The notes beneath the pieces are model-generated. The model saw only the letters and a program-made list of their open reading frames with translations. It was not told the DNA's origin and did no database searches. The position numbers were made by a program, and so were the translations under genes. Of a stretch of DNA of 55,426 nucleotides, positions 19,649-55,384 are shown in pieces (the stretch's first letter is position 1; every line of letters begins with the position of its first letter). The DNA comes from Candidatus Gastranaerophilales bacterium. Lineage in GTDB: Bacteria; Cyanobacteriota; Vampirovibrionia; Gastranaerophilales; Gastranaerophilaceae. The stretch is from assembly GCA_944327245.1 (NCBI GenBank), contig CALVHD010000012.1:1-55426 (forward strand). The letters are read 5' to 3'.

Positions 19649-19675
19649 AAAAGGCGGACAAAAGCCGCCTTTTTT
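19649..19675 (+). terminator. Terminator of the axial-like gene
   Basis: A 9-bp stem (AAAAGGCGG with CCGCCTTTT, 7-nt loop) followed by further Ts. Confidence 0.9.
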
Positions 19676-19728
19676 ATCGTCCATTTATATTATTTTGTAG
19701 AAAAAATCAATCTTAGGGTTTATAATAT

Positions 19729-19757
19729 TAAAAAAAGCTCCTTAATAAATTAAGGAG
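19729..19757 (-). terminator. Terminator of the flagellar operon
   Basis: An 8-bp stem (19738-19745 with 19750-19757, loop TAAA on the plus strand). On the minus strand the hairpin is followed by GC and a run of Ts. It lies 30 bases beyond the flgL stop. Confidence 0.8.
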
Positions 19758-19786
19758 AAATAATGGTAAGTTAAACTTTTATTTTA

Positions 19787-20698: not shown

Positions 20699-20718
20699 AA
20701 TAAAAATCCTTTTTTATT

Positions 20719-22266: not shown

Positions 22267-22284
22267 AACAATAAATCCTTTTAA

Positions 22285-22680: not shown

Positions 22681-22692
22681 TAATTCCCCTAT

Positions 22693-23007: not shown

Positions 23008-23009
23008 TT

Positions 23010-24463: not shown

Positions 24464-24480
24464 ATCTGTCATCCTATATA

Positions 24481-25086
24481 TTAGAATATTGTTCTTATTG
24501 TTCTGTTTAAGATACCTTCATTTTGACCACGAGAAACAGTACCTGCACCATTCATGGCAAATTGAAGATTAGCTACTTGGCTTGAATAAATTTCACCTGA
24601 CTGATTAATCCATTTAGGATCAACGATTCCTGAAATAATCAAATCAAGCCTTTCATTTTGATTAACTAAACTTTTTTTACCTTGCACTAATAAATTGCCA
24701 TTAGGTAAAACCTGTACAACTTGTGCTACAACTACGTCTGATAATGTAAGACTTCTTGATAATTGAGTTTGTCCTTGGACATCCAAAGTGCCGTCTGTTC
24801 CGTTTAGCGCACCTTTTAATTTTGTTTTAAAAATTATGTTAATAGCATTTGTGAAATTTTCGGCTAAAGAACTTGATTTTTGGGTATTATAGGCTCCTGT
24901 ATCCACCATATTAGGTGCTTCATCAATAACTATTGAAACTAAATCCCCAACTCCTCTTGCTCTTACTGATGAATACAGTGCTCTGGGTTCAATGACTGCA
25001 TTTTGAGAAGCATTCAAAGAAAACAAACTTTCTGCATGCACCGATATTGTTGATAAAATTATTAAAGACACCATTAACTTTTTCAT
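24481..25086 (-). CDS. flgH: Flagellar L-ring protein FlgH without lipobox
   Basis: Outer-membrane L-ring subunit, 201 residues. Family motifs include RARGVGDLVSIVIDE, LPNGNLLVQGKK, ISGIVDPKWI and a C-terminal GILNRTIRTIF. Usual FlgH is a lipoprotein anchored through a cysteine after the signal peptide. Here the signal peptide ends SVHA-ES and the whole protein contains no cysteine, so it cannot be lipidated. Shine-Dalgarno AAGGAT. It lies between flgA and flgI. Assembly may rely on protein contacts alone. Confidence 0.94.
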   Translation of the reverse strand: MKKLMVSLIILSTISVHAESLFSLNASQNAVIEPRALYSSVRARGVGDLVSIVIDEAPNMVDTGAYNTQKSSSLAENFTNAINIIFKTKLKGALNGTDGTLDVQGQTQLSRSLTLSDVVVAQVVQVLPNGNLLVQGKKSLVNQNERLDLIISGIVDPKWINQSGEIYSSQVANLQFAMNGAGTVSRGQNEGILNRTIRTIF

Positions 25087-25088
25087 TT

Positions 25089-25811
25089 TTATATCCTTAC
25101 TATAACCTCTGATGATGAATGCACTATTGCATTATATGTTTTATTGTACGTATTTGAGCGAACAGGTATAGATTCGCCCATTGCACCTTCTTTAAGAGCT
25201 TTGCCTTGCAATCTGATTTTTAAACCTTTACTTGATAAAAATACAATATCTACCATAGAATTTTTTGCTATAACAGACTTTTCTTTAACCCCGTTAGACA
25301 AAATTATGCTCCCTTTTGGAAAATTTCTTTTTGCAATAAAATTTGAAATATTAGAACTATAAGTATTTCCCAAAAATCTTGAAATTTCTTTTTTAGCTAA
25401 GATTGTATTTTTATTATTTATCTCACCATTAAAAGGAATTTGTTCATTAGCTACTAAAACATCTTTATATATAAGAGTTTGAACATTTATATTGATAACT
25501 TTAACAACATTATTAAAGCCATCTTTTATAACCACTCTTTTATATGAATTAGGATTAAATGTTGTTTGTTGATTAATTATTTCAACTTTAGGAATTGAAT
25601 TATCTCTTGTGATTATATTTTCTTTTGGAATACCTTGAATGTTAACCTTGATTTCAGCATTATATGAAGACAGTGCCTTTTTTGCTTCATTTAAAGCTTT
25701 TGTTTTTACAATTGAATTTAGATTGTCATAAGTTAAACAATAGCAAAAAGCGCTCTGTGTCATTAAGATAAGAGTTAAAAATAATATTAAATTTTTAAAC
25801 ATCTTTTTCAT
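25089..25811 (-). CDS. flgA: Flagella basal body P-ring formation protein FlgA
   Basis: Periplasmic chaperone for P-ring assembly. The 240 residues start with a signal peptide (hydrophobic stretch NLILFLTLILMTQSAF). A SAF-like domain and the C-terminal module follow, with NFPKGSIILSNGVKEKSVIAK and IRLQGKALKEGAMGESIPVR, then SNTYNKTYNAIVHSSSEVIV, the last of these typical of FlgA C-termini. The N-terminal region is divergent. It is located between flgG and flgH, the usual order. Confidence 0.9.
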   Translation of the reverse strand: MKKMFKNLILFLTLILMTQSAFCYCLTYDNLNSIVKTKALNEAKKALSSYNAEIKVNIQGIPKENIITRDNSIPKVEIINQQTTFNPNSYKRVVIKDGFNNVVKVININVQTLIYKDVLVANEQIPFNGEINNKNTILAKKEISRFLGNTYSSNISNFIAKRNFPKGSIILSNGVKEKSVIAKNSMVDIVFLSSKGLKIRLQGKALKEGAMGESIPVRSNTYNKTYNAIVHSSSEVIVRI

Positions 25812-25826
25812 GCTTCAATTTTCAAC

Positions 25827-26612
25827 CTAAACTATTTGATTTGTTTGCTGTAATATATTAGATCCGGCTGTAATTACTTTTGAATTTGATTCATAAGCAC
25901 GTTCGGTTTTAATTAGCCCAATCAATTCTTCGACAGTTTGAACATTCGACCCTTCAATAAAACACTGTTCTATTGTTCCATAACCTTCTTCGCCCGCTGT
26001 TCCTTGTAGCGGCGTTCCTGAAGCCTGTGTTTCACGATATAAATTGTGTCCTATTGCCAATAATCCTGATGGATTTTGAAATTTTACAAGCTGAATTTGA
26101 CCCAATTGAGTTTGTTCAGAATTTGTTCCTGTTGTGCAAGATACAATCCCCGCTTGTGAAACTGAAATATCTTTGGCGTTAACAGGAATAGTTATGGGTG
26201 GTTGCAGTTGGTAACCATCTGAAGTTACTAATGAACCATTTGAATCCATTTGCCAAGAGCCATCACGAGTATAGGCAATTGAACCGTCATCAAGAGTGAT
26301 TTGAAAAAAACCATCACCTGCTATTGCCATATCAAGCTGCCTGTCTGTAGATTGAAGTGTTCCCGGAGTAAATATTCTTGTTGTAGCTGAAGTTTTAACA
26401 CCAAGACCAACTTCTAAACCAACCGGCTGATATGTACCTTGACCCATTTGAGCCCCAGGAGTTCTATGAACTTGAGATAATAAATCTTGAAATTCCGCTC
26501 TAACTTTTTTATATCCATAGGTAGACAAGTTTGCGATATTGTTTGAAATAACGTCTAAATTATTTTGTTGTGCAATCATCCCTGTTGCTGCTGTTGTAAG
26601 TGCTCTAAGCAT
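25827..26612 (-). CDS. flgG: Flagellar distal rod protein FlgG
   Basis: Distal rod subunit of 261 residues. It starts MLRALTTAATGMIAQQNNLD with the axial motif NNIANLSTYGYKK. The FlgG-specific loop region with TPGTLQSTDRQLDMAIAGDG follows, and it ends with NVQTVEELIGLIKTERAYES and SNKVITAGSNILQQT. Length and motifs are standard. Shine-Dalgarno GAGG. It follows flgF directly. Confidence 0.96.
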   Translation of the reverse strand: MLRALTTAATGMIAQQNNLDVISNNIANLSTYGYKKVRAEFQDLLSQVHRTPGAQMGQGTYQPVGLEVGLGVKTSATTRIFTPGTLQSTDRQLDMAIAGDGFFQITLDDGSIAYTRDGSWQMDSNGSLVTSDGYQLQPPITIPVNAKDISVSQAGIVSCTTGTNSEQTQLGQIQLVKFQNPSGLLAIGHNLYRETQASGTPLQGTAGEEGYGTIEQCFIEGSNVQTVEELIGLIKTERAYESNSKVITAGSNILQQTNQIV

Positions 26613-26624
26613 TATATCCTCTTT

Positions 26625-27482
26625 CTATCGTGAAATATTTCCTAAACTGATGGCTTGTGAGACAGTATCACTTTGAGTTTTTAAAATTTTACTCATTGAT
26701 TCATAGCCTCTTGATACATTTATAGAATTCAACATTTCTTGTATTGTATTAGCATTTGACATTTCGACCATACCCTGTTGAATATTATATGTTCCGTCTG
26801 CCATAGTATAGAGTCCTGCATCTTTACCGTATATCGGAAGAAACTTACCCTCTCCTATTGCTGAAACATTTGTTTTATCCATAAAATCACACACTTGAAT
26901 TTTTTGAAGCGTTGCTCTAAACAAAGGGTTATTTATCTCAATTAAACCGTTTTCTCCAATAATTAAATCTTTTTGAACATCAAGTCTGTTCATTTCTCTT
27001 AAATTATCGGCATCCGGATCTCTTGTAATTCTAATCCTGCGATTTTGAACATCCATTACATAATCGCCTTCTTTATTAACAAGATAATTATCTGATGTAA
27101 GAGCAAAATTGCCCGTTCTTTGATAATAATAATTTCTTTCATCATAAGGCGCATCATCAGGAATATCACCATATCTAACCTTAAAAAATCCGTTTCCCTG
27201 AAAAGCTAAGTCCAGTTTATTGGCTGATTCTTGTAAACCGCCCTGAGAAAAATCAATATATGTTCTATCTGCTCTTGTGCCATTACTCAATAGACCGACA
27301 TTTTTATATACGCTATTTACATCTTTTGCTTGCACTTGCGCTTTCATAATATCTTGAAAAGTTATGTTAGTTCTTTTAAAACCGGCTGTTGTAACGTTAG
27401 CAAGATTATGTGCTGTTACATCTTCAAAATCAATTAACGCCTGCATGCCCTTTGCAACAGTACCTATACCTCTTGTTATCAT
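26625..27482 (-). CDS. flgF: Flagellar proximal rod protein FlgF
   Basis: Rod protein of 285 residues. It has the axial N-terminus (DVTAHNLANVTTAGFKRT), the LDLAFQGNGFFKV motif, a YYQRTGNFAL segment and the C-terminal ANTIQEMLNSINVSRGYES. The non-FlgG pattern and placement before flgG identify it as FlgF. Its ATG overlaps the transglycosylase stop (ATGA), with AAGGGGG about seven bases upstream. Confidence 0.88.
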   Translation of the reverse strand: MITRGIGTVAKGMQALIDFEDVTAHNLANVTTAGFKRTNITFQDIMKAQVQAKDVNSVYKNVGLLSNGTRADRTYIDFSQGGLQESANKLDLAFQGNGFFKVRYGDIPDDAPYDERNYYYQRTGNFALTSDNYLVNKEGDYVMDVQNRRIRITRDPDADNLREMNRLDVQKDLIIGENGLIEINNPLFRATLQKIQVCDFMDKTNVSAIGEGKFLPIYGKDAGLYTMADGTYNIQQGMVEMSNANTIQEMLNSINVSRGYESMSKILKTQSDTVSQAISLGNISR

Positions 27483-28180
27483 ATTTTTGCCCCCTTAAGT
27501 TTTTCATAAGTTGACATTATAGATTTAACATAATTTTGTGTTTCTTTATAAGGAGGAATACCACCATATCTTTTAACTGCATTAGGACCTGCGTTATACG
27601 CTGCAAGAGCTAATTTTTCATCATTATTAAATCTATCCATTAAACCTTTTATATATTTAACTCCGCCCTCAACATTTTCCCAAGGATTATAAGCATCAAC
27701 TACCCCAAGACTTTTTGCCGTCGAGGGCATTAATTGCATTAAACCCATTGCTCCTTTTTTACTTGTAGCATTAGGGTTAAAACCTGATTCTTGTTTAATC
27801 ATAGCCTTTATGAAATCGCCGTCAATATTATATTTTTGAGCAAATGTTTCAACAATTTCATCAATATTTGCCTTTTGGCTCATTAAATCAATTTTAGATT
27901 TTAAATCAACATTTTCTTTTTTATTTGCTTCAATTTTTTTTGTATATTCGTCAACTGGTCCAAGTTCAATTTCTTCAACTGGATTTTGTTCTTTTTTAAT
28001 ATCTTCTTTAATTTTTCCGTCCAAAACAGATTGAAAACTACCCTTTTCAATATTAGCTGTACTATTATTATTTATAGAATTAATTTGACCCATAACATTT
28101 TCTAAAGCTTGAAAATTACTTTCTATAGCATTCAATCTTGCAAGCGTCAAATTAAGGCTGGAAGATATGCCTTGTGTCAT
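27479..28180 (-). CDS. Lytic transglycosylase (SLT) of the flagellar operon
   Basis: Peptidoglycan-cleaving enzyme, 233 residues, first gene of the flagellar operon. The first 105 residues are polar and probably flexible. Residues 105-228 are an SLT domain with catalytic Glu131 in KQESGFNP, KGAMGLMQLMPSTA, and ALAAYNAGPNAVKRYGG. No signal peptide is present, so export is probably through the flagellar apparatus, as for FlgJ. Its role would be to open the wall for the rod, complementing the short rod-binding FlgJ at 23010. Confidence 0.9.
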   Translation of the reverse strand: MTQGISSSLNLTLARLNAIESNFQALENVMGQINSINNNSTANIEKGSFQSVLDGKIKEDIKKEQNPVEEIELGPVDEYTKKIEANKKENVDLKSKIDLMSQKANIDEIVETFAQKYNIDGDFIKAMIKQESGFNPNATSKKGAMGLMQLMPSTAKSLGVVDAYNPWENVEGGVKYIKGLMDRFNNDEKLALAAYNAGPNAVKRYGGIPPYKETQNYVKSIMSTYEKLKGAKI

Positions 28181-28958: not shown

Positions 28959-30057
28959 ATGGATAATCTTTTAATTGATGAATTAAAACAAAAAATAAGC
29001 GCCTTATCTGATAGATTTAATTCTATAGAAAGGTGTCTTTGACAAAAATAATCTTGATTTTCGCCAAAAAGAAATCGATGAAGAACTAAAAAAAGAAAAT
29101 ATCTGGTCTAATCAAGAACTATCTTCAAAACTTTTAAAAGAACAAAAAGAAATTAAATCTAAACTTGAAAATCTTCAAAAATGGAATTCAACCCTTGAAG
29201 ATTCAAAAATTGCTCTTGAATTAGAAGATGAAAATTTAATTTTAGAATGTCAAAACAATCTTAATCTTTTAGAAAAAGAATTTGATAAATTTGACCTTGA
29301 AAACATGCTAAACGGCGAATACGATAAATCTGATGCCATTTTAACCGTTAACTCAGGTGCCGGCGGAACTGACGCTCAAGATTGGGCAGATATGCTTTTA
29401 AGAATGTATTTAAGATGGGCACAATTAAAAGACTACAAAACAGAATTATTAGATAAATCTGATGGAGATGAAGCAGGGATTAAATCCGCCACAATTAAAA
29501 TCTCCGGACTTTATGCTTACGGCTACATAAAAGCAGAAAAAGGAGTCCATAGATTAGTCAGAATTTCTCCTTTTAATGCTAACGGAAAAAGACAGACAAG
29601 CTTTGCTTCGATTGAAGTTTCTCCTGTTATAGAAGATTTTGAAAAAGAAATAAATATTCCTCCTCAAGATATAGAAGTTGACACCATGCGCTCAGGAGGT
29701 GCCGGCGGTCAAAACGTTAATAAAGTTGAAACAGCGGTCAGAATTAAGCACATTCCAACAGGCATCGTTGTAAAATGTCAACAACAACGCTCTCAATTAC
29801 AAAATAAAGAAACAGCCATGCAAATGCTTGCTTCAAAACTTCTTTTAATTAAACAGCAGGAACACGAAAAAAAATTAGGTCAATTAAAGGGTGAAGTTAT
29901 GGACGCCAATTTTGGCTCTCAGATAAGAAGCTATGTTTTTCATCCGTATAAAATGGTTAAAGACCATAGAACAAATTTTGAAACAACAAATGTTGAGGCA
30001 GTTATGAATGGCGAAATTGATGACTTTATTGAAAGTTATTTAAGAAAAAAAGATTAA
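28959..30057 (+). CDS. prfB: Peptide chain release factor 2, with programmed +1 frameshift
   Basis: RF2 recognises UGA and UAA and releases the finished chain. The gene is in two frames: 27 codons (28959-29039), then a UGA at 29040-29042 bypassed by a +1 shift, then 29041-30057. The product is 365 residues, the same length as E. coli RF2. It carries the GGQ motif in [13 protein letters not shown] and [14 protein letters not shown]. The RF2-type helical N-domain is complete only if the shift occurs. This is normal autoregulation: low RF2 favours the shift. No Shine-Dalgarno precedes the ATG. Confidence 0.95.
29031..29042 (+). promoter_or_regulatory. prfB programmed frameshift site
   Basis: AGG TGT CTT TGA C: an internal Shine-Dalgarno (AAAGG), a 3-nt spacer, slippery CTT and an in-frame UGA followed by C. 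Every element of the conserved RF2 autoregulatory site is present. Confidence 0.95.
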
Positions 30058-33000: not shown

Positions 33001-33816
33001 ATGTCTTACAAAAATGACCATGAATTAACAATTGCAAACAGATATAGCGGAGCAAGCTCCGCAGCCAAGGCTGAATTATATGAAACTTATGATAGGTTAA
33101 GGGATTTAACTGTTTCAGGTTCAACTGCAACAGGGGCAGGCTTTGGAACAGCAGGTGGTTTTTTGTGGCAATTAGCAAACTTATTTTCACCATCCAGCTT
33201 TATGACAACTCTGGGCGGTTCATCTATGATGAACATCCCCGGAACTTCATACTGGTCCCCTAATTATGCTTCTAAATCATACTATGACTCAGGGACAAAT
33301 TCTTTTGGAGTTTCAGGGCTTTCAAGCTACTCAGGCTTCCCGTCTGGTGCTGCAGGCATATCATTAGGTTTTGGCACAGAAGGCTCGCCCACAGGTGGAG
33401 CAGCAGGAATGGCAACCTGTTATGCTGTATCTGCCGCAGGTATTGCAGCACTAAACAGTGCATCATACGCCGCAGGGGCAACTTCAGGCTTTGGTTTTGG
33501 ACAAAATATTCTATTACCTATTGCAGGTTTAGTATCCGGATGGGGCGGCATTTTACAAGCAATAGCGCCATATGCAGGCGAATTTGGCTTAGGGGCAATT
33601 GTTGCAGGTAACTTAATGCAAGGTACAGGTTCAGCTGCTTTATCAGCCTATCAAAATATTACAGGCAACATTACAAATAATGCCGATGTAATATTGGAAG
33701 ACAAAGTAAGAAATATTGAAACAATATGTAAAATGCTTGATACACAAGCAGATATTGTTCGTCAAACCTTGAAATCCAATATGGAATCTGATTCAAAATT
33801 AGTTGATGAATTATAA
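33001..33816 (+). CDS. Gly/Ala/Ser-rich protein, unknown function
   Basis: I do not recognise this 271-residue protein. Residues 1-35 are helical and charged. The long middle (about 38-220) is dominated by Gly, Ala and Ser, with aromatic residues and patches such as SGFGFGQN, and hydrophobic stretches near 175-215. The last 45 residues are a charged helix with VRNIETICKMLDTQADIV. No signal peptide is seen. GAGGT serves as Shine-Dalgarno, and a terminator follows, so it is monocistronic. It might be a surface or assembly protein, but nothing in its neighbourhood shows the job. Confidence 0.65.
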   Translation: MSYKNDHELTIANRYSGASSAAKAELYETYDRLRDLTVSGSTATGAGFGTAGGFLWQLANLFSPSSFMTTLGGSSMMNIPGTSYWSPNYASKSYYDSGTNSFGVSGLSSYSGFPSGAAGISLGFGTEGSPTGGAAGMATCYAVSAAGIAALNSASYAAGATSGFGFGQNILLPIAGLVSGWGGILQAIAPYAGEFGLGAIVAGNLMQGTGSAALSAYQNITGNITNNADVILEDKVRNIETICKMLDTQADIVRQTLKSNMESDSKLVDEL

Positions 33817-33889: not shown

Positions 33890-36220
33890 TTAAATCATTT
33901 TATAAACTTTAAACTCACCTGGGCGAAGTTCATTAAAAGTGATTTCTTTTGTTATATCGTTTTCTAAAGGTTTTTCAACAAAAAGACATTTATTTAATTC
34001 ATCCAGTTCAAAATCAAAATAAGAAACAAGCTTTTTGCCTTTTTTGATTTTTACGGTATTGTTTCTTGTAATTGTGCCTCTTACATTTTTCTTTTCAATA
34101 TGACCTAAATTATCTTGGACATCTTTAATCTCATAAGGTGCAAAATAATTAGCTACAATTAAATAAGTTGCTTGTTTTTCGCCTTTTTTCGGTTTTTGTT
34201 TATCATAATCAGGGACAACCTCCCAACATACAAAACCGTTACTTTCCTGATTGTGTAATACGGCTCTGCCTTGATTTAGAAGTTTATCGTGTTGAGCAAA
34301 ATAATTAATTGCATTAAACTTTTCAAAGAAATTCCAATCATAATTTCTTACCATAGAAGTTTCTTTTGAAATTACTCTTTCAATACCGACTTTTGTAAAA
34401 CTTTCATCACCGTCAATCAATAATGTAGGACGAGATGCAAACTTGCCCCCTGGGATAAATTTCAATTTAAACCATTTAAACAATGCCCCTTGAGCGCCTA
34501 ATTGCCCCGGATACTGATTAATATCTCTAAATTCACCGTCTTGGTTATTATATCCTTTTAAAATAGACAGAGGATTAGTTTTTGCATTTTTTTGATTGTA
34601 TGTTGATAGTCTTAAATTATCATTAACTATTTGCTCGGGAGTCTTGATGCTTTGAGCAACAATGTCATCGCCCCACAATACATCAAATTTCATATCTTTA
34701 TGATATTCCTTAAAATATCCGTCCCAAAGCATATATTCAGCTAATGTTGCAAAATAAGGAACTTTCTTTTTAAGGTTAGAATTGATATTACCCAGAACTT
34801 TTGCAGGTATTCTGTAGCTTAAAGGCTGCCCTTTTTTATCTTGCGATACTTCATCCACAATATGATCAATATGATCTACCCTAAAACCATCAAAATTAAA
34901 TTCTTTTTGAAGATTTTCGGTATAATTTTTATAAAAATCAACAACATCACCATTATATTTATTTAATTCAAAATGATAGAAATAATATGGCGTTTGACAG
35001 TCTAAATTTGCAAAATGAGTTACATCTTCACCTTTATGATTATAATGTTTAGAAATAGGATATTTATTTCCCTTGCTCATCTTATCAAAAACAGGAACTC
35101 CTGCTGAACACCATGCCCCGCCTGACATTGTCCATAAACCTTGTTTAATTAGTTCTTGCACTATTTCATCTTGATTTTCAATGTCTGACTCTGTTTTTAT
35201 ATGTTTTTTTGCAACTTTTGTAATTATTTCTTCAGCTCTTTTTTGCAATTCATCTTGTTTTTGAGCAAAACTCATCTTATAAGAAACTAAAATTTTATAT
35301 TCTTTAATGTCGTTTTCAATTTCATCAACAATTTTTTGTTCAATTGCATTATATTTTTTATAATTTCCTTTTAAATTTTCAATATACAATTTTTGAACAT
35401 TTAAAACATCTTCGTCTTTATAGGTTCTTTTTTGCATAAGTTGAGCACACAAAGCATTAAAATAACCTGAAATACTTTGAATTAACTCATTTACATCCAT
35501 CCACCTTGCAACATAAGGCTTTGATAATACAATTTTAGAAAATCTTGCAGTTTGAGGTAAAATGTCATAAATTACAGGATGATTGCATAATTGAGCCAAT
35601 TCAATAAACAATTTTACTTGACTTGTTGCATCAAGCCCTAAAAATTTCATCAAATTATCGTCTTGTAAATTATCGGATACTTCTGATGATTTTGGAAGAT
35701 AAGCACAATCAAATTCACGTTTAAAAAACGGAATTAAATATAGCGTTGCAGGTAAAATTTCAAGTTCATCATTACCAAAGTCAAGAGTAATTAAACATTT
35801 TACCCAATCGATAAAATGCCCCGGATAATCTGAAGAATTTCCATCCCCTAAAGCACTTAAAGATAGAAGTTTTATATTATGACCTTCTTTTTTAAACCAA
35901 TTAGAATTTTTGATTTTTCTTCTTGCTAAAACAGACGGATTAGAAAAATCTATAAATTTACCATCAACAAAAGTTTTAGCTTTTTTTAATTTTTCAATAA
36001 GACAAAATATGGTTTCAGCATTTGTTAACTCTTGCAAAACCTTAAATTGAGGATATGGTAAATAGCCATATTTTTCTATTGTTTCAGATAAATATTTTTT
36101 CCTATCTTCATTTATTTCTTCTACTCTATAAATTTGTGCCATTTTTGCAAGCAATACATTAAGCTCGCTTGGCTTAAAATTTGCTTCGTGCTTGTTTTTC
36201 TTCGCTAATAAATTCAACAT
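33890..36220 (-). CDS. Divergent GH13-like alpha-amylase family enzyme
   Basis: A 776-residue enzyme with alpha-amylase catalytic motifs. Region II FDGFRVDHIDH carries the nucleophile Asp449, region III ATLAEYMLWDG carries acid/base Glu495, and FAQHDK near 641-646 may be region IV. The first 210 residues and a helical insertion at about 250-350 are unlike common amylases. The last 100 residues are beta-rich. No signal peptide, so it is probably cytoplasmic glucan metabolism alongside the GH57 enzyme. Shine-Dalgarno GAGGTT. Exact activity is not readable; a glucanotransferase or lyase-type member is possible. Confidence 0.72.
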   Translation of the reverse strand: MLNLLAKKNKHEANFKPSELNVLLAKMAQIYRVEEINEDRKKYLSETIEKYGYLPYPQFKVLQELTNAETIFCLIEKLKKAKTFVDGKFIDFSNPSVLARRKIKNSNWFKKEGHNIKLLSLSALGDGNSSDYPGHFIDWVKCLITLDFGNDELEILPATLYLIPFFKREFDCAYLPKSSEVSDNLQDDNLMKFLGLDATSQVKLFIELAQLCNHPVIYDILPQTARFSKIVLSKPYVARWMDVNELIQSISGYFNALCAQLMQKRTYKDEDVLNVQKLYIENLKGNYKKYNAIEQKIVDEIENDIKEYKILVSYKMSFAQKQDELQKRAEEIITKVAKKHIKTESDIENQDEIVQELIKQGLWTMSGGAWCSAGVPVFDKMSKGNKYPISKHYNHKGEDVTHFANLDCQTPYYFYHFELNKYNGDVVDFYKNYTENLQKEFNFDGFRVDHIDHIVDEVSQDKKGQPLSYRIPAKVLGNINSNLKKKVPYFATLAEYMLWDGYFKEYHKDMKFDVLWGDDIVAQSIKTPEQIVNDNLRLSTYNQKNAKTNPLSILKGYNNQDGEFRDINQYPGQLGAQGALFKWFKLKFIPGGKFASRPTLLIDGDESFTKVGIERVISKETSMVRNYDWNFFEKFNAINYFAQHDKLLNQGRAVLHNQESNGFVCWEVVPDYDKQKPKKGEKQATYLIVANYFAPYEIKDVQDNLGHIEKKNVRGTITRNNTVKIKKGKKLVSYFDFELDELNKCLFVEKPLENDITKEITFNELRPGEFKVYKMI

Positions 36221-36349: not shown

Positions 36350-37108
36350 CTATTTTTTTCTTATAAAATCCAATACTGCATTGATAAATGTCAAAGGATG
36401 AGTCGGACATCCTGGGATATAAAGGTCAATTTTGTATTTATCAATAAATTCTCGATTTATTTCTTGCGAATTTTGGAAAATTCCACCGGAAATAGCACAA
36501 GCTCCGCACAAAATCACAACCTTAGGGTCAGGGCAAGATTTATAGCAATCTTCAAGAGCATATGCCATATTTTTTGAAATCGGACCTGTTACAACAATTC
36601 CATCGGCATGACGAGCAGAAGCAACAAAATCAATACCAAATCTGCCCATATCAAAATTTGCATTTCCTGCCGCATTCAATTCCATTTCACAACCGTTGCA
36701 ACCGCCAGCTGAAACTTGGCGAAATTTAATTGAACGATTAAAAATAGAATAAATTTCTTTTCTTACTTCAATTGCTTTTTTGTGATATTCTTCAGGAGTC
36801 ATTTCTTCAGTTACTATTAACTTTTCTCTTTTATCTGCTCCTAATTTATAATAATTTGTAAAATCAATTGCATGGTTTTCGCAAAATCTTTTACATTTAC
36901 CGCACAAAGTACATTTTCCCAAATCTATTGATAAAGGATTAACATTTAGTGCTCCTGTCGGACAAATTTTAGCACACTCTCCGCAAGAACTACACTTAGA
37001 ATTATCAAGCTTAGGCAGACCTCTAAAAGCTGTTCTCATCGGCGCATTTTTAATATCAGGTATAAACTGATTTTTTTGCCATAATTTCATTTTTAAAGTA
37101 TCAAACAT
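36350..37108 (-). CDS. Fused ferredoxin/NuoB-like subunit of Hyf/Ehr complex (HyfH + HyfI)
   Basis: Electron-transfer subunit of 252 residues combining two usually separate proteins. Residues 35-80 hold two 4Fe-4S motifs (Cys39/42/45/49 and Cys66/69/72/76), as in HyfH/HycF. Residues 130-252 are the small-subunit (NuoB/HyfI/HycG) domain, with GGCNGCEMEL (Cys137, Cys140), GPISKNM, CGACAISGG and PGCPTHP (Cys234) keeping the proximal cluster ligands. It would carry electrons between the large subunit and a soluble donor or acceptor. It is the last gene of the operon. Confidence 0.88.
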   Translation of the reverse strand: MFDTLKMKLWQKNQFIPDIKNAPMRTAFRGLPKLDNSKCSSCGECAKICPTGALNVNPLSIDLGKCTLCGKCKRFCENHAIDFTNYYKLGADKREKLIVTEEMTPEEYHKKAIEVRKEIYSIFNRSIKFRQVSAGGCNGCEMELNAAGNANFDMGRFGIDFVASARHADGIVVTGPISKNMAYALEDCYKSCPDPKVVILCGACAISGGIFQNSQEINREFIDKYKIDLYIPGCPTHPLTFINAVLDFIRKK

Positions 37109-37124
37109 AATATTTTTTCCTTAA

Positions 37125-38576
37125 TTATAAATCAAATCCACAATATGAAAGGTCAAACCCCTTGTTACACAATGGAAAATCGGAAATACCATTTCCTCTT
37201 ACTGCCATAGCTAAACCATACCAATTATTAAATGACGGATCTTTTATCTTATAGCGAGTTAGTTTTCCTGTTTCATCAGTTGTTGCAATATGAACCAATT
37301 CCCCTCTCCAACCTTCAACTATGCTGAGCGCAAAAGAATTAGGGATAAGACTTTTTGCTTCAACTTTAATTTCTTCATCTTTATAATTTTCAAGTTTATT
37401 GAGCAATTTTTTAATATATGAAATAGATTCAATCGTTTCTTTGTATCTGATTCTAAAACGTGAATAAGCATCATTAGTGGCTTTAAATTGTTTGCGTTCA
37501 AAATCTTTATAAAATTCATCGCAAAAATCAAAACGAGAATCGATCTCTAATCCACAGGCTCTGCCCATTAAACCTACTAAATTTAATTCTTGAGCTATCT
37601 CTCTACTTACTGTACCGGTTTTTTCAAATCTTGACATAACGGTTGCACTTTTAAACACCGCTTGAGTCATTTTATTGACTGTCTTTTTAACGCCATCAAG
37701 AACATTAATTATTTTATCAGACATTTCCTTATCTATATCAAAATTTACACCGCCAAAAGCAATTAAACCTCTGCCAAATCTGCTTCCTGAAATTTCAAGC
37801 ATAGTATTAATTACCAAAGTTCTTGTAACAGCATAAACTTCTTTACCCATCAAATAAGCAATATCACCCAATATTGCGCCCATATCACCAATATGTATCG
37901 CGCATCTTTCCATTTCAAGAGCAATTCTTCTTATTAATTTTGCTTTTGTGGAAATTTTTGTGCCTGATAATTCTTCCATAACCTGTGAATAAGCCATATT
38001 ATAGGCTATAACACTGTCACCGCAAATTGATTCAGCCAATTGATTAGAAGGATTTTTAACCATCAAATCTTCACAGCCTCTGTGTTGATAACCGAGCATA
38101 ATTTCAAGGTTATAAACTTTTTCGCCCTGACACATAAATCTAAAATGTCCGGGTTCAATAACACCTGCGTGAATTGGACCAACAGCCACTTGGTGAGTTG
38201 CTTCGCCATCCATTTCAAAAAATTTATAATCATCTTGATTTTTTCTAACAGGTTTCAACCAAGGATGTCCTTTGGGTTCAATATGAAACTGTTCGTAAAA
38301 TTCACGCTCGAACATATGATATTGAGGATTGTCTTTTGTAATAGATTCATATTCTTTAACACTTTTATTAATTAAAGAGGATGTTAAAAGAATTTCGCCT
38401 TTTTCATCATCAGCTAAAGCAACAAATAATTTAATATTTTCGCCCCAATCACAGCCAAAAAATGATAAAGGCCTTAAATTACTTGCAGCCAAGCGGCTTC
38501 TTAATGCACCAAGCTCTAAAGTCGGAATATCCAACAAATTAACTCTTTGATTATTTTTTACAGTATAGTAATTCAT
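37125..38576 (-). CDS. Hyf/Ehr large subunit (HyfG-like) lacking NiFe ligands
   Basis: Large subunit of 483 residues: a NuoC-like N-terminal domain (about 1-115) fused to a NuoD/hydrogenase-like domain, the HycE/HyfG layout. In real hydrogenases L1 reads CGIC and L2 DPCxxC. Here L1 is ESICGDSVIAY (Cys185 kept, Ser188 in place of the second Cys) and the C-terminus is DLSYCGFDL, with Ser477 and Gly480 at the ligand positions. Three of four NiFe ligands are gone, and no cleavable C-terminal extension follows. I start at the ATG at 38576, which has AGGAG upstream. Best read as an Ehr-type, non-hydrogenase complex. Confidence 0.85.
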   Translation of the reverse strand: MNYYTVKNNQRVNLLDIPTLELGALRSRLAASNLRPLSFFGCDWGENIKLFVALADDEKGEILLTSSLINKSVKEYESITKDNPQYHMFEREFYEQFHIEPKGHPWLKPVRKNQDDYKFFEMDGEATHQVAVGPIHAGVIEPGHFRFMCQGEKVYNLEIMLGYQHRGCEDLMVKNPSNQLAESICGDSVIAYNMAYSQVMEELSGTKISTKAKLIRRIALEMERCAIHIGDMGAILGDIAYLMGKEVYAVTRTLVINTMLEISGSRFGRGLIAFGGVNFDIDKEMSDKIINVLDGVKKTVNKMTQAVFKSATVMSRFEKTGTVSREIAQELNLVGLMGRACGLEIDSRFDFCDEFYKDFERKQFKATNDAYSRFRIRYKETIESISYIKKLLNKLENYKDEEIKVEAKSLIPNSFALSIVEGWRGELVHIATTDETGKLTRYKIKDPSFNNWYGLAMAVRGNGISDFPLCNKGFDLSYCGFDL

Positions 38577-38598
38577 TTTATCTCCTAACCCTTTTAAA

Positions 38599-40032
38599 TT
38601 AACCAACAAGGGTGTTTCTAATAATTACATCTAAAAATTTTGGTATGTAAACCCCTAAAATAAATGCCAAAGTAAGCATTACAACCTGAGGAACATACAT
38701 TGTTTTTGAAATCTTTGCAATATTTTTCTTTGCAAGAGCAAATTTTTCATCACTTTTTTTGCCATATACCATTTTAATTACTACTCTTGCCATTCCAAAA
38801 AGAACAATGGTCAACAATAACAAAAATAATGCACATAATATAAAGTGTTTTTGTATTAAAAATGCTTTTACAACTAAAAATTCACTTAAAAACAACATAC
38901 TTGGAGGAAATGCGCAAATTCCAAGGAAAGACACAATCCAGAGCCAAGCTGTTTTTTTATCAATCAAACCCAATGAACGGATAGATTTAATTCTTTTTGT
39001 TTCAAAAAGTTCTAAAACATTTCCTGATGTGAGGAAAAAAGATGCTTTAATTAATGAGTGGCCGATTAAATGAAGAATTAAAGCAAAATATGCAATTCCG
39101 CCTAACGCAGTCGCAATAGCCAAAATACCCATATTTTCAATTGACGAATAAGCAAGCATTCTTTTGTAGTTTGTTGTGTGATATAAAAATACTGCAGTTA
39201 CAAACAATGATAAAAATCCCATTGTCATTAACATTGTTCTTGCAAAAATCACACAATTAGCGCAAAGCATTACTTTATATACATTTAAAATAACCAAAAA
39301 TGCGCAATTTAATAATGTTGCTGATAATAAGGCTGAAATCGGACTTGGAGCTTCGGAGTGTGCATCAGGAAGCCAAAAATGAACAGGCGCAAGCCCCATT
39401 TTTGTGCCAAGACCAAACAATATAAACACAAAAGAAACATTTAACCAAAAATGACTGAAAGACTTTGCATTATTCATTAAATCCGAATAATTAAGAGTGT
39501 TTACATCGCCTGTTGCAATTGTAAGTAAAATTATACCCACAAACGCTAAAGCAATTCCGATTGAACAAATAAACACATATTTCCAAGCAGCTTCAATTGA
39601 ATGTTTTGTTTTATTGAAATAAATTAAATAAGCACTTGCTAAAGTTGTACCTTCAATAAATATCCAAGCCAAGCCCAGATTGTTTGATAAGATACCGCCT
39701 GTCATAGAAAAGACAAATATCAATATCATAACACTATATAACATCATCTTTTGAGATGGAAATTCTTTAGCCAAATTCTTGCTATAGCCGCAGTTATAAA
39801 CTGCAACTGCAAGGAAAACTATTGATAATACAAGGTAAAATACAATATTTGATGCACCCAAATTAAAATAATTACATTCACCTAAAAGCTCGGGTTTTAG
39901 AAAATAAGCAACCCCCAAAATTGAATGTACAAGTGCATATAAAGTAATTAATGTATTGTTTAGAATATTATTTTTAAACAAAAACAATATTAAACAAAAA
40001 ACTATAGGTAATATTAAAACTAAACTAATCAT
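38599..40032 (-). CDS. Hyf-type antiporter-like membrane subunit (HyfF-like)
   Basis: Membrane protein of 477 residues and about 14 helices, related to NuoN/NuoM and Mrp antiporter subunits. Conserved ion-channel residues are visible: MGLAPVHFWLPDAHSEAPSP and YKRMLAYSSIENMG. It should be one proton or sodium pumping module of the complex. The ATG at 40032 is preferred: AGGA lies about 11 bases upstream, while the in-frame GTG at 40041 is too close to it. It overlaps the HyfE-like gene by eight bases. Confidence 0.9.
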   Translation of the reverse strand: MISLVLILPIVFCLILFLFKNNILNNTLITLYALVHSILGVAYFLKPELLGECNYFNLGASNIVFYLVLSIVFLAVAVYNCGYSKNLAKEFPSQKMMLYSVMILIFVFSMTGGILSNNLGLAWIFIEGTTLASAYLIYFNKTKHSIEAAWKYVFICSIGIALAFVGIILLTIATGDVNTLNYSDLMNNAKSFSHFWLNVSFVFILFGLGTKMGLAPVHFWLPDAHSEAPSPISALLSATLLNCAFLVILNVYKVMLCANCVIFARTMLMTMGFLSLFVTAVFLYHTTNYKRMLAYSSIENMGILAIATALGGIAYFALILHLIGHSLIKASFFLTSGNVLELFETKRIKSIRSLGLIDKKTAWLWIVSFLGICAFPPSMLFLSEFLVVKAFLIQKHFILCALFLLLLTIVLFGMARVVIKMVYGKKSDEKFALAKKNIAKISKTMYVPQVVMLTLAFILGVYIPKFLDVIIRNTLVG

Positions 40033-40675
40033 TGTTTTCACTGTCCTTTAAGTCTGATAAATGAGCTACTTCCATATCTCCCAATTCTTTATTTATTTGT
40101 GAAACAAATAAACCTAAAATATAAATTGCAATAAATACATCTAACAAAACGCCTATATTTACCAACATCGGCATTTCTTTTGCAACAGATAAAGATAATA
40201 AAAATATACCGTTTTCCATTGTAATAAATTCAATAACATTTGATAAAATCTTTTGCTTGATTGTAATTAACCATAAGCTGATTATTATTGTTGAAAGAGC
40301 AATACCAAAACACATCGGATTTATCATAGATAAAGATGGAATATCTAAAACACTAATCATAAATCCGCCAAACAATATTGCACTTGAAATAAATAAACAA
40401 TAAAAATGTGCAACATTAGCGTCTGTATCTCTTTTTAAATGAGTTTTTCTTAATACTTTATTTAAAAACAAAGGAATTAAAATTGCTTTTACAAGCAGCG
40501 TTTCGATTGTTAAAAACAAAATAATAAACCAAGGCATATGATGAAATCCTGCCGCACAAATTAAAAACAGCAAAATACCTTGTGCAATAAGTGCGTCAAC
40601 ATGCGCTTTTAATCTACTCGTTGTAGACAAATAGAGCATTGTTAAACCAAATAATATTATAAAGCCGTTAACCAT
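40025..40675 (-). CDS. HyfE-like membrane subunit
   Basis: Small hydrophobic subunit of 216 residues with about six helices. It resembles HyfE, related to NuoK/MnhC-type subunits; the helix pair around ITMENGIFLLSLSVAKEMP is the recognisable part. The C-terminus is charged. It lies between HyfC-like and HyfF-like genes exactly as in hyf operons, with two bases separating it from its upstream neighbour. Confidence 0.82.
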   Translation of the reverse strand: MVNGFIILFGLTMLYLSTTSRLKAHVDALIAQGILLFLICAAGFHHMPWFIILFLTIETLLVKAILIPLFLNKVLRKTHLKRDTDANVAHFYCLFISSAILFGGFMISVLDIPSLSMINPMCFGIALSTIIISLWLITIKQKILSNVIEFITMENGIFLLSLSVAKEMPMLVNIGVLLDVFIAIYILGLFVSQINKELGDMEVAHLSDLKDSENND

Positions 40676-40677
40676 TT

Positions 40678-41607
40678 TTATACTCCATACATTTTTACAG
40701 CTACTAAAGAAGCAATAACAAGAGCAAATGAACTCATAACAAATACAAACTCAAATACATGGCTCATTCTTAATCTTGCTATTCCTGATTCAATTGTTCC
40801 GACTAAAACAGAAATTACAAACATCATTAACAGAAAAGCAATCGTTGATACACCCAAACTTAAATTTGAAGGTAAAATCAAGTTTGATATTAATGAAGCA
40901 AGTAAAAACATTTTCATATAAGCACTCCAAGATATAAGTGCTAATTCAGACGAACAATTATCTAATATCATAACTTCATGAATCATTGTTAATTCTAAGT
41001 GTGTTGCAGGGTCATCAACAGGAACTCTGCAGCCTTCCGTTAAAAGCATAATTAATAGCGCCAACACAGCAAAAATTACAATTAAATAACCTATACTGCC
41101 GGCATTTTGAATAACCAAAGCTAAACTATCAAAAGTATAAATTTTGCACAATGCCATTATTGAAGCTATAACAATAAAAAATGCGGGCTCAATTATAGTT
41201 GTAAAGCAAGCTTCACGAGATGCCCCCATTCCTTCAAAACTGCTTGCCGTTTCCATTGCAGCCAATAAAGAAATAAATTTTGATAAACCCAGCGCATAAG
41301 CAAAAATAATCAAACCGCCTTGGATGTTTATTATTGTAGTTCCATTAACAATTGGAATAAAAAGACACGCAAAAATAGTGCAAGCTAAACCAATTAAAGG
41401 AGCAAATCTAAAAATCCAAGTTGTAGTGTTTGAATAAGTTGAAGTCTTTTTCATTAATTTGACAAAGTCAAACAACGGTTGAAAAACACTTGCACCTTTT
41501 CTTCCTCCAAAAAACGCTTTTGTTTTTCTGATTACACCTGTCATCAAAAAAGGAATAATCAACAAAAATAAAATATTTAAAATTTTCATTATAATTTCGT
41601 TTGACAT
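40678..41607 (-). CDS. NuoH/HyfC-like membrane subunit
   Basis: Membrane subunit of 309 residues that joins the membrane arm to the peripheral arm. NuoH-type motifs: KTKAFFGGRKGASVFQP, GLGCT-type helix replaced here by GLACTIFAC, SSFEGMGASREA, and TEGCRVPVDDPATHLELTM. About eight helices. It lacks the complex I quinone-site extension. Second gene of the operon. Confidence 0.92.
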   Translation of the reverse strand: MSNEIIMKILNILFLLIIPFLMTGVIRKTKAFFGGRKGASVFQPLFDFVKLMKKTSTYSNTTTWIFRFAPLIGLACTIFACLFIPIVNGTTIINIQGGLIIFAYALGLSKFISLLAAMETASSFEGMGASREACFTTIIEPAFFIVIASIMALCKIYTFDSLALVIQNAGSIGYLIVIFAVLALLIMLLTEGCRVPVDDPATHLELTMIHEVMILDNCSSELALISWSAYMKMFLLASLISNLILPSNLSLGVSTIAFLLMMFVISVLVGTIESGIARLRMSHVFEFVFVMSSFALVIASLVAVKMYGV

Positions 41608-41623
41608 AATCTATTTTCCTACA

Positions 41624-43594
41624 CTACCCTAAAATCAATGCGGCAATTAAAGCTATTGCCAAAAATATTAATCCGACACGAATATATTGTTGAATATCTC
41701 CGTTTTGTATTTTTTCAAATTTAGATAAGAATTTTTCATCCAATTTTATAATCGGATTAATAACATAAACTTCTTCAATATCATCAAATTCAGCTTCATA
41801 GTGAGCTTCTTTCGGGAATAATCCTTTTGCTTTTCTAACATCAGTATTCCTTTTAAACAAAGGTTTTAAGATACTTGAAAAAGGACTAACATATGAAGCA
41901 GCGCTATATTGAACTTTACTTGTCAATTTATTATATCCACAGCCCCAAGTTGAATATATTTGAGGTGTTTTTGATATTAACTTTTTAACTATTGAAATAA
42001 CCAAAATTAAACCCACAAGAATTAATATATATTTTGAAATATTTGATAAAAACGCAATTGTTTCAACTGCTTGAGGGTTTTCAATTAAAACTGAAGCCGG
42101 TTTCAATACATATTTAAACATATATTGAGGAAATAACCCGATAATAAAACAAGCTGTTCCCAATAAGCCCATCGGAATTAACATTGATCTTGGACTATCA
42201 TTTTCAACAGCTTCCGCTTTTTCACTTCTGGAAGCTCCCAAAAAAGTTATGCTTATTGTTTTTGTAAAACACAATATAGCCATTGTTCCAACCAAAGCTA
42301 GAGCTGAAAAAGCAAACAATATTGCTATAAATACTCCAAAATTATCAATAGCCAAAGCTTTAATAAAACTCAAATATATCAAAAATTCGCTTACAAAACC
42401 GTTAAAAGGAGGTAGAGCACATATTGCAACACCACCAACGATAAAACATAGCGCAGTCATTGGCATTTTTTTAATTAATCCGCCTAAAACTTCCATGTCT
42501 TTTGTATGAGTTTTAACATATACACTGCCTGCGCTTAAGAATAATAACTCTTTAAATATTGAGTGATTTAATATATGAGCCAAACTTCCGCACAAAGCCA
42601 ACAGCGCCATTGTCGGATGATTATAATAAACAGCCAACATATAAATTGAAATACCTATACCGATAATGCCTATATTTTCAATTGATGAATAAGCAAGCAT
42701 TTTTTTAATATCTTTCTGAACTGTTGCATAAGCAATGCCATACAACGCAGTTATTGCAGTTAAAACTAAAATAGTATATATAACTGTAATTTTTGGAATT
42801 GAGCTGAATTGAATTGCCCTTAAAATTCCATAAATACCTGTTTTTATCATAACACCACTCATCATAGCGCTAACATGAGAAGGCGCTTGAGGGTGAGCAT
42901 CAGGCAGCCAATTATGGAAAGGAACAAAGCCTGCTTTTATACCAAAACCTATAAAACCAAAGATAAAAATTAAATTTGCTAAATCTGCATTGTTCAATAA
43001 TGATTCTTTAAACGTTGCAAAATCAAGACTCATAGCATTTGTTGAAAGCAGTACAAAGAATAATATTATAAATATAACTGACACATGCATATAAACCAGA
43101 TATTTAATACCTGAATTAATAACTTCTTTCTTTTCGTGTTCGAATATAACAAGAAAAAATGAAGATAATGACATTAATTCCCAAATAATTAAAAATAACA
43201 ATGCATTTTGACAAGTTACAACCAAAAGCATTGAAGCCATTAATAATGCTAAAAATATGCAATGAGCAGAAACATCTTTTCCTTTGTTAATATAAGGTGC
43301 AAGATATCCGTTTGAATAAATAATTGCCAGAGTTGACATAATCGAAATAAAAATTACAAAAAATGCGCTCAAATCATCAAGCACAAATCTTACATTTTGA
43401 AATATTGAACCAAGATGCAATATACATTCTTGGTTTGAAATAATTAATGCTTTAACTGCGGCGCTCACTGTAGCACAAGAGGCTAAAACCGCCCCTATTG
43501 ATACACATTTTAACTTTGCTGCTTGATTTTTAAAAAACAAGCTGATAATTGCACCGCAAAATAAAATTGCTATTCCTATAAAATAGTTTTCCAT
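41624..43594 (-). CDS. Large antiporter-like membrane subunit (HyfB-like)
   Basis: First gene of the complex operon, 656 residues with 14-16 membrane helices, related to NuoL/HyfB. Key pumping residues appear in IKAGFVPFHNWLPDAHPQAPS and KKMLAYSSIENIG; WELMSLSSFFLV and PPFNGFVSEFLIYL are family segments. After about residue 550 a soluble loop precedes one last helix at 633-653, like the lateral-helix end of HyfB. Shine-Dalgarno GAGGAAA. Only two antiporter-like subunits are present, and hyfA and hyfD equivalents are missing. Confidence 0.92.
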   Translation of the reverse strand: MENYFIGIAILFCGAIISLFFKNQAAKLKCVSIGAVLASCATVSAAVKALIISNQECILHLGSIFQNVRFVLDDLSAFFVIFISIMSTLAIIYSNGYLAPYINKGKDVSAHCIFLALLMASMLLVVTCQNALLFLIIWELMSLSSFFLVIFEHEKKEVINSGIKYLVYMHVSVIFIILFFVLLSTNAMSLDFATFKESLLNNADLANLIFIFGFIGFGIKAGFVPFHNWLPDAHPQAPSHVSAMMSGVMIKTGIYGILRAIQFSSIPKITVIYTILVLTAITALYGIAYATVQKDIKKMLAYSSIENIGIIGIGISIYMLAVYYNHPTMALLALCGSLAHILNHSIFKELLFLSAGSVYVKTHTKDMEVLGGLIKKMPMTALCFIVGGVAICALPPFNGFVSEFLIYLSFIKALAIDNFGVFIAILFAFSALALVGTMAILCFTKTISITFLGASRSEKAEAVENDSPRSMLIPMGLLGTACFIIGLFPQYMFKYVLKPASVLIENPQAVETIAFLSNISKYILILVGLILVISIVKKLISKTPQIYSTWGCGYNKLTSKVQYSAASYVSPFSSILKPLFKRNTDVRKAKGLFPKEAHYEAEFDDIEEVYVINPIIKLDEKFLSKFEKIQNGDIQQYIRVGLIFLAIALIAALILG

Positions 43595-54033: not shown

Positions 54034-54705
54034 CTATTTAATTTCCCCGCTATTTAATAATTTTTCTACTTCATTTTTAATTTTTTGATGAATTTCATCT
54101 TGGCTCTTTGTACCGTCAAGCTCAATAAAACCATATTCTTTAATTAATTTTTTATATTCATCAAGACATCTTTTTTGATATATTTCAAAACTGTTATAAA
54201 TATCTGTCGATAAACCAATATCACGCCCTGATTCAAAATAATCAAGCGCTCCATTTTTAGCTATAAGTCTTTTAATTAAAATATCCGGTGCAACATTTAA
54301 ATAAAAAACTAAATCAGGCTTAGGAGCAAAACTGTAGAGATTTTTAACCCAATTGATGTCATGACCCCTAACCGAATCACGCACAAATGCAGTATAAACA
54401 TATCTGTCCATTAAAACAACAAAACCCGCCTTAAGAGCCGGAATTATCTCGTTTTCCAGTCTGTCCGTATAATCAGCCGCATATAAAAGAGAATATGTTG
54501 TTGTATTTAACATATTTTTTTCTTTTGCTTCATTTATTATTCCCGAAATCAATCTTGAAGTTTTCCACTCAGAAACAGTGCAACCGTAACACCTGTCTAT
54601 AACATATTTAGATAATAAATTAACTTGTGTAGATTTACCTGAGCCGTCTGTACCTTCAATAACAACCAACAAGCCGTCATAACCGTGTTTTTTATTATTT
54701 TTCAT
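54034..54705 (-). CDS. Thymidylate-kinase-like protein (second of tandem pair)
   Basis: P-loop kinase of 223 residues, related to Tmk. Walker A is EGTDGSGKSTQ (about 17-27) and the DRYVYTAFVRD motif matches the Tmk DRY region. The substrate loop (REPGGT in true dTMP kinases) is replaced here by SEWKTSR. Its paralogue lies just upstream, with an 11-base overlap, so the two are cotranslated. The pair could form a heterodimer, or one may have changed substrate. A canonical tmk may exist elsewhere in the genome. Confidence 0.82.
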   Translation of the reverse strand: MKNNKKHGYDGLLVVIEGTDGSGKSTQVNLLSKYVIDRCYGCTVSEWKTSRLISGIINEAKEKNMLNTTTYSLLYAADYTDRLENEIIPALKAGFVVLMDRYVYTAFVRDSVRGHDINWVKNLYSFAPKPDLVFYLNVAPDILIKRLIAKNGALDYFESGRDIGLSTDIYNSFEIYQKRCLDEYKKLIKEYGFIELDGTKSQDEIHQKIKNEVEKLLNSGEIK

Positions 54706-55384
54706 TTTGTTCCTTTAAAATTTTTCTTGATTTTAATAGTTCGGATACTTTTTGCCTTATAAATTCTTGTTTAGTATGTATGGTTTCCATAGCATCAATT
54801 TTAATTAAACCAAACTCGTCAATCATAGCTTTATACTGTTCAACTATTCGATTTTGGAATAAAACATAGCTTTTATAAGGATTATTAGACAATTTCATAT
54901 CCATGCCCGCTTCATAAAATTTTGGCTGCCTGTTTGAACAAATTCTCTCTAAGCTATCTTTCGGGCTAACATCAAAATAAAAAGTCATATCAGGTTTAAT
55001 TGCAAAACCATACATATTTCTAACCCATTTAGGGTCAACTTCTCTGGCTACATCTCTTGCAAAAGCAGTATAAACGTATCTGTCTGCCAAAACCACAAAC
55101 CCCGCTTTTAAGGCAGGTTTAATTGTTCTTTCTAATCTATCCGCAAAATCAACTGCATGCAACAGAGAAAAAGTTCTTCCTGATAAAAGATTTTTCTTTT
55201 TTGCCTTTTTGGTTGTATTTGAAATCAACTCTGAAGAATTCCATTGTGTTAAAATTACATCTATTCCTTTTGATTTTAGCCAATTATGCAATAATTCAAT
55301 TTGTGTAGATTTACCCGAACCGTCAATACCTTCTACACAAATTAGTACACCTGAATAGGTATGTTTTTTTGAAAATCTTAACAT
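54695..55384 (-). CDS. Thymidylate-kinase-like protein (first of tandem pair)
   Basis: P-loop kinase of 229 residues similar to the next gene over its whole length. Walker A is EGIDGSGKSTQ (about 18-28), DRYVYTAFARD is the Tmk motif, and the segment corresponding to REPGGT reads TQWNSSE. A following FYEAGMDMKLS element is shared with the paralogue (FESGRDIGLS). The start has AAGG upstream and lies 42 bases from the window edge, so any upstream partner is unseen. Confidence 0.82.
   Translation of the reverse strand: MLRFSKKHTYSGVLICVEGIDGSGKSTQIELLHNWLKSKGIDVILTQWNSSELISNTTKKAKKKNLLSGRTFSLLHAVDFADRLERTIKPALKAGFVVLADRYVYTAFARDVAREVDPKWVRNMYGFAIKPDMTFYFDVSPKDSLERICSNRQPKFYEAGMDMKLSNNPYKSYVLFQNRIVEQYKAMIDEFGLIKIDAMETIHTKQEFIRQKVSELLKSRKILKEQNEK

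Follow-up and report, generated by a model that had tools for sequence, protein, structure and literature searches.

Complexes of the energy-converting hydrogenase-related (Ehr) class span several bacterial phyla, none of them with a known reaction. Those of Nitrospira, the candidate phyla radiation and Geobacter have been described in these terms (PMC10284858, PMC7304191, PMC7894505), and Ehr was found in four Melainabacteria genomes in a study that proposed a formate dehydrogenase-linked complex mainly for other lineages (Matheus Carnevali et al. 2019; PMC6349859). The Ehr of gut Melainabacteria is likewise a six-subunit NiFe-hydrogenase-like membrane complex without metal-binding motifs, from the same order or class as the bacterium studied here (PMC3787301, PMC6349859). 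The stretch analysed, contig CALVHD010000012.1 of assembly GCA_944327245.1 (Candidatus Gastranaerophilales bacterium; 55,426 nt, as a whole called the window; G+C content 31%), comes from a genome of 1.70 Mb that is 97% complete and contains an Ehr operon of six minus-strand genes at 36350-43594, with gaps of 2-22 bp or an overlap of 17 bp between them. Judged from the protein sequences and the gene content, the chances are roughly even that this six-subunit member of the complex I superfamily is a ferredoxin-oxidising, ion-exporting pump that passes electrons to a small acceptor bound where Ni-Fe used to be. An earlier reading of the DNA (the original prediction) had matched the six genes to hyfB-C-E-F-G-(H+I); all open reading frames were recovered on the minus strand (Table 1) and the family matches agree, with E-values of 1e-15 to 1e-164, except for the 30-kDa part of the large subunit (4e-5). 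That Ehr complexes have no established reaction, as it had also stated, is in line with the papers retrieved (PMC10284858, PMC6349859, PMC7304191).

The large subunit has lost its Ni-Fe ligand set. Its start codon, ATG 38576 with GGAG upstream, confirms the numbering of Cys185, and its L1 (ESICGDS) and L2 (GFDLSYCGFDL) sequences contain the CGDS and DLSYCG motifs that had been predicted. Upon alignment to Escherichia coli HycE, the Ni-Fe cysteines C241, C244, C531 and C534 correspond to C185, S188, S477 and G480, leaving C185 as the only cysteine at the four positions. This part of the original prediction was borne out for the protein itself but does not extend to all of its orthologues. Indeed, most of 110 orthologues have C at position 185, about ten having V, N, A or S instead; the residue is A in the Ehr of other classes and changes state at least six times on the tree; since it is replaced in several orthologues, it is not a conserved ligand. 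S477 and G480 are invariant among the same orthologues wherever the C-terminus is present, and S188 is mostly S or T. At the C-terminus, the sister enzymes that retain four cysteines read PLVNKSFNLCYACVDR, whereas Ehr reads PLCNKSFNLSYCGxDL, so that two cysteines were lost and two new cysteine positions (C470 and C479) appeared; Cys470 is present in every inspected Ehr sequence with a C-terminus, distant ones included. L2 ends the protein and a C-terminal extension is thus missing, as had been noted, but this is no sign of metal loss, because the four-cysteine sisters (L123-L125) also end after L2. The two relocated L2 cysteines might replace the two lost ones, the enzyme still being a hydrogenase with a metal site formed by other residues (C185, C479, C470, S477, S188). 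This is very improbable, as C185 and C479 are each replaced in some orthologues and as the genome of the window lacks HypD, so that assembly of Fe(CN)2CO is not expected. Residues around the pocket are retained, namely the proton-relay Glu (HycE E193, here E141), the canopy Arg (R478, here R424) and E380 (E437 in HycE) throughout the aligned Ehr sequences, and H228 (H284 in HycE) in all of them except one; the roles of Glu193, Arg478, Glu437 and His284 were taken from PMC9474812. The canopy Asp is D475 here and N in most other genera and in the four-cysteine sisters. Because Glu141 and Arg424 are retained, an acceptor that takes up protons would be favoured.

The assignment to the Ehr class, as originally predicted, is supported by a group 4-type large subunit without metal ligands that occurs together with antiporter-like and Fe-S subunits. 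The two Ni-Fe-ligating CxxC motifs and the Hyp maturation of group 4 NiFe hydrogenases are lacking (HypD was not found in the genome, which is 97% complete), and so are the quinone-site His and Tyr (Nqo4 H38 and Y87) and the adjacent CC of NuoB that mark complex I/NDH-1. In a maximum-likelihood tree, Ehr formed one clade (support 100), sister to four-cysteine Hyf-like enzymes (99) and apart from NuoD, with a warning from the tree tool that long branches meet where Ehr joins the four-cysteine sisters. Most simply, a NiFe enzyme would have lost its metal site once. Similarly, the best fold match of an AlphaFold model of the large subunit (predicted local distance difference test, pLDDT, 80; predicted template modelling score, pTM, 0.86) was HycE (7z0s_E; Z 34.3; root-mean-square deviation 2.7 Å over 423 residues), with NuoD chains close behind (Z about 33). 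This shared NuoD fold and the occurrence in the genome of one UbiA prenyltransferase, weakly MenA-like, would fit a complex I-type quinone reductase, that is, a ferredoxin:quinone oxidoreductase. Such a function is improbable, however, as a hydrogenase-type loop with Glu141 stands where complex I has its His, the L1 loop lacks the complex I Tyr, and CNGC replaces the adjacent Cys pair of NuoB. In addition, the MenA-like protein is far under every curated cut-off, and genes for quinones and a respiratory chain were not found in Melainabacteria by Di Rienzi et al. (PMC3787301).

The Fe-S subunit carries its CNGC motif with hydrogenase spacing in the small-subunit domain, which aligns there without gaps to MbhJ and HycG. 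Four Cys ligands of the proximal cluster were found in 116 of 116 sequences, and the same holds for cluster B of the ferredoxin domain (cysteines 1-3 of motif II and 4 of motif I). Cluster A (cysteines 1-3 of motif I and 4 of motif II) has all its Cys in only 58 of the 116, the protein of the window among them; ligand losses were seen in L012, L058, L059, L090, L102, L109 and others. Half of the orthologues have lost ligands, the tree requiring eight or more changes, so that one cluster erodes repeatedly. Some sequences of genus g24 have C, C and D plus a shifted C at this site, possibly an Asp-ligated cluster. By the usual complex I naming, cluster A may be the medial cluster N6b, in which case its loss would leave a gap in the electron wire; no text found in a literature search settled which Cys ligate N6a and N6b. 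The original description of the Fe-S subunit as intact is therefore accurate for the window, where both ferredoxin-type clusters and the proximal cluster hold complete Cys sets, but not for half of the orthologues. The proximal cluster also bears on the comparison with the archaeal membrane-bound sulfane reductase (MBS), a well-studied complex which is hydrogenase-derived as well and has lost its Ni-Fe ligands (PMC7684303). A sulfane-sulfur or disulfide reductase of this kind could make use of the derived Cys470 of the pocket loop and of Cys149. It is nevertheless distinctly unlikely, since MBS catalysis needs a three-Cys proximal cluster, the loop being three residues shorter than in the membrane-bound hydrogenase (MBH; PMC7684303), whereas in Ehr the loop is as long as in hydrogenases and none of the four Cys is missing; moreover, the pocket Glu is lost in MBS and kept in Ehr.

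Both antiporter-like subunits are intact, as the original prediction had claimed from the sequence. HyfB residues E139, K220, K251, K348 and E403 are conserved in all 66 aligned orthologues, and E130, K214 and E387 are present in HyfF; the Glu of transmembrane helix (TM) 5, the Lys of TM7 and the Glu of TM12 are conserved in both subunits, with one orthologue having Lys at TM12 of HyfF. The E-channel of HyfC is mostly retained. With the metal site gone and the antiporter subunits intact, the complex might be a dead enzyme that serves as an ion antiporter only. This is highly unlikely in view of the selection on the cytoplasmic part, as the genes for both cytoplasmic subunits belong to the most strongly constrained ones (ratio of nonsynonymous to synonymous substitution rates, dN/dS, 0.02-0.03) and no ligand of the proximal cluster or of one ferredoxin-domain cluster is lost in any of the 116 sequences. 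Indeed, compared with near relatives by large subunit (96-98% identical), which are metagenome-assembled genomes of Candidatus Gastranaerophilales, all six genes had dN/dS values of 0.016-0.07, the lowest being those of the large subunit, the Fe-S subunit and HyfE. All six genes are under strong purifying selection and are not decaying.

The genome of the window was searched family by family with profile models. Besides HypD, neither a PF00374-type NiFe large subunit, an FeFe hydrogenase (PF02906) nor a 51-kDa flavoprotein (PF01512; NuoF, HydB or RnfC type) was found in it, and no complex I-type large subunit other than that of Ehr turned up. Two 2-oxoacid:ferredoxin oxidoreductase (POR) gamma subunits were retrieved, one of them within a three-gene 2-oxoacid oxidoreductase cluster, as well as a GltA/NfnB-like protein. 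NfnA was not seen with an indirect probe, the AsrB model TIGR02911, which was not built for NfnA; a TIGR02911 match was rejected as NfnA, being pyrK beside pyrD. Ehr is encoded in 82 of the 228 Gastranaerophilaceae genomes with a completeness of 95% or more, and FeFe hydrogenase is missing from 40 of the 228. Ehr occurs in 39 of these 40, the genome of the window included, while 43 genomes have both enzymes, 145 FeFe hydrogenase only and one neither (Fisher p 8e-20, shared descent not corrected for). An earlier sample of 146 genomes, overlapping the 228, gave Ehr in 14 of 15 genomes without FeFe hydrogenase. By genus, the 40 genomes belong to g1 (15), g10 (6) and g24 (18), plus one more; genus g24 comprises 18 genomes with Ehr only, one with both and ten with FeFe hydrogenase only, the corresponding numbers for g1 being 15, two and two. 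This suggests that Ehr is an alternative route for disposing of ferredoxin electrons in Gastranaerophilaceae.

Complexes of the complex I superfamily are reversible, and the 43 genomes with both enzymes would be consistent with reverse operation, in which the proton motive force would drive an uphill reduction of ferredoxin to supply FeFe hydrogenase or further enzymes that depend on ferredoxin. Di Rienzi et al. (2013) contemplated this for gut Melainabacteria, which have the same complex of six subunits (PMC3787301). It appears unlikely here, as genomes without FeFe hydrogenase nearly always carry Ehr, which argues against Ehr feeding that enzyme as a general role. Furthermore, reduced ferredoxin is already supplied by two 2-oxoacid oxidoreductases, and reverse operation would require an electron donor at the pocket. 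For Margulisbacteria and Saganbacteria, Matheus Carnevali et al. (2019; PMC6349859) proposed a complex linked to formate dehydrogenase, and in Geobacter the abundance of Ehr is higher during growth on formate (PMC7894505). For the present complex such a link is exceedingly unlikely, since a molybdopterin oxidoreductase (PF00384) was found in none of the 146 Gastranaerophilaceae genomes, the window's included, with a control search positive in 11 of 14 genomes, which excludes Mo/W formate dehydrogenases as partners in this family; nor did the loci contain a formate dehydrogenase-like neighbour. The 64 loci with one complete copy of each subunit gene all have the order B-C-E-F-G-S, and no conserved neighbour gene, sought as a partner candidate, was found beside the operon in these loci, so that an operon-encoded partner is not indicated; the Ehr complex would be self-contained, and a fixed partner subunit is less likely. 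Hence, of the ferredoxin-driven ion pump with an unknown partner that had been suggested originally, the pump would fit the gene content, which makes it likelier, but the fixed partner is not favoured.

As a ferredoxin-oxidising pump, the complex would act as follows, whereby we infer ferredoxin as the donor, the direction of electron flow and the coupling to ion export. Reduced ferredoxin, generated by the 2-oxoacid:ferredoxin oxidoreductases, would bind to the fused iron-sulfur subunit at its ferredoxin domain, from where electrons would pass via [4Fe-4S] clusters to the proximal cluster. A small acceptor would then be reduced in the former Ni-Fe pocket, with protons delivered via the retained Glu141/Arg424 relay, and this redox step would power the outward pumping of H+ or Na+ by HyfC, HyfB and HyfF. 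Ferredoxin would thus be re-oxidised without production of H2, so that the complex could replace an FeFe hydrogenase. A more specific form of this proposal, in which Ehr takes the place of the hydrogenase as a respiratory ferredoxin-oxidising ion pump, its pocket acceptor possibly served by the derived, invariant Cys470 and some lineages working with one ferredoxin-domain cluster, is tentative and rather doubtful. Several points weigh against ferredoxin oxidation coupled to ion export. Firstly, the genomes without FeFe hydrogenase are confined to three genera and one further genome, so that the association rests on few independent losses, and the two enzymes do occur together in 43 genomes. 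Secondly, the HyfC equivalents of the E-channel glutamates E199 and E201 of HycD are A201 and H203 (A, T or S, and H, in orthologues), so that the coupling may differ. Thirdly, the AlphaFold model has low confidence at 112-164 and 460-483, which is the pocket, and is unusable for modelling it. Lastly, the searches for alternative electron sinks were limited, the one for Nfn being indirect and those for PF00374 and HypD covering the genome of the window only.

The features of the operon are listed in Table 1.

Table 1. Genes and motifs of the Ehr operon in the window
Feature	Coordinates	Strand	Basis or remark
HyfB-like antiporter subunit, 656 aa	41624..43594	-	Proton_antipo_M match; ND3-like C-terminal loop Cys (C552)
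HyfC/NuoH-like membrane anchor, 309 aa	40678..41607	-	NADHdh match
HyfE-like membrane subunit, 216 aa	40025..40675	-	'hydrogenase 4 membrane subunit', NCBIfam PRK11492, E 1.8e-15, under curated cut-off
HyfF-like antiporter subunit, 480 aa	38599..40041	-	Proton_antipo_M match
Large subunit, NuoC-like and NuoD/HyfG-like parts fused, 483 aa, without Ni-Fe ligand set	37125..38576	-	Complex1_30kDa+49kDa
L1 motif C185-G-D-S188 (HycE: CGIC)	38013..38024	-	Alignment
L2 motif D475-L-S477-Y-C479-G480 (HycE: DPCYSC; four-Cys sister enzymes: NLCYAC)	37137..37154	-	Alignment
Cys470 of large subunit	37167..37169	-	Val in four-Cys sister enzymes
2x[4Fe-4S] ferredoxin domain and NuoB/HycG-like proximal-cluster domain, one fused gene, 252 aa	36350..37108	-	Fer4+Oxidored_q6

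Adjoining the operon, a 776-aa protein without a Pfam match is encoded at 33890-36220 (minus strand), which stands beside Ehr in only 6 loci. Elsewhere in the window, a Gly/Ser/Ala-rich protein of 271 aa, also without a Pfam match, is encoded at 33001-33816 (plus strand), prfB (release factor 2) at 29037-30057 (plus strand) has at 29037 the classical site of programmed frameshifting, CTTTGAC, and two overlapping tandem genes at 54034-54705 and 54695-55384 (minus strand) are thymidylate-kinase-like (PF02223) and mutually diverged. A flagellar cluster extends from about 18561 to 28180, with FlgK, FlgI and a flagellin/FlgL-like protein identified by Pfam; further rod and ring genes were assigned there on the impression given by their sequences. 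Complete sets of flagellar genes are reportedly uncommon in Gastranaerophilales. In some other genomes, the large subunit lies within long open frames (about 1000 aa), which resembled gene fusions but result from high G+C content. Homologues of about 375 aa (E about 1e-20) in sister genera resembled Ech hydrogenases and proved to be NuoD-type. A very divergent NuoD-like large subunit on a long branch (L129, genome G037; 8328-9443, minus strand) has its GPQHP-type motif degraded to IEPNHP, and its host genome also carries Ehr.

Compared with E. coli hydrogenase 4 (Hyf) and hydrogenase 3 (HycE), the complex of the window shares subunits B, C, E, F, G, H and I, the fold of the large subunit, the relay Glu and the canopy Arg, but lacks the Ni-Fe ligands as well as HyfA, HyfD and HyfJ, and has HyfH and HyfI fused. 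The four-cysteine Hyf-like enzymes L123-L125, which come from a neighbouring family of the same bacterial class and are the sister group in the tree, share the operon B-C-E-F-G plus a next gene; they differ in having complete CGMC and CYAC motifs, an unfused last gene with a shorter open reading frame (177-181 aa), and Asn and Lys in place of the canopy Asp and Arg. Pyrococcus MBS has a hydrogenase origin, a lost Ni-Fe site and an ion-pumping membrane arm in common with Ehr, from which its three-Cys proximal cluster and missing pocket Glu distinguish it. Cyanobacterial NDH-1 and the 11-subunit complex I-like enzymes have a related large subunit and ferredoxin as proposed or known donor, but a NuoD-type quinone pocket; an enzyme of this kind occurs in some sister genera and was not found in the genome of the window. 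The Ehr of gut Melainabacteria, compared by the descriptions in the respective papers, shows no basic difference from the complex of the window. Since it has been known since 2013 and 2019, what is new here are the tests of the published ideas. For Gastranaerophilaceae, the co-occurrence pattern counters the reverse-flow idea of 2013, and the formate dehydrogenase link put forward in 2019 is excluded by gene content. As the hydrogenase-less genomes keep Ehr without confounding enzymes, Ehr is there the likely re-oxidiser of ferredoxin, and the question of its reaction becomes directly testable.

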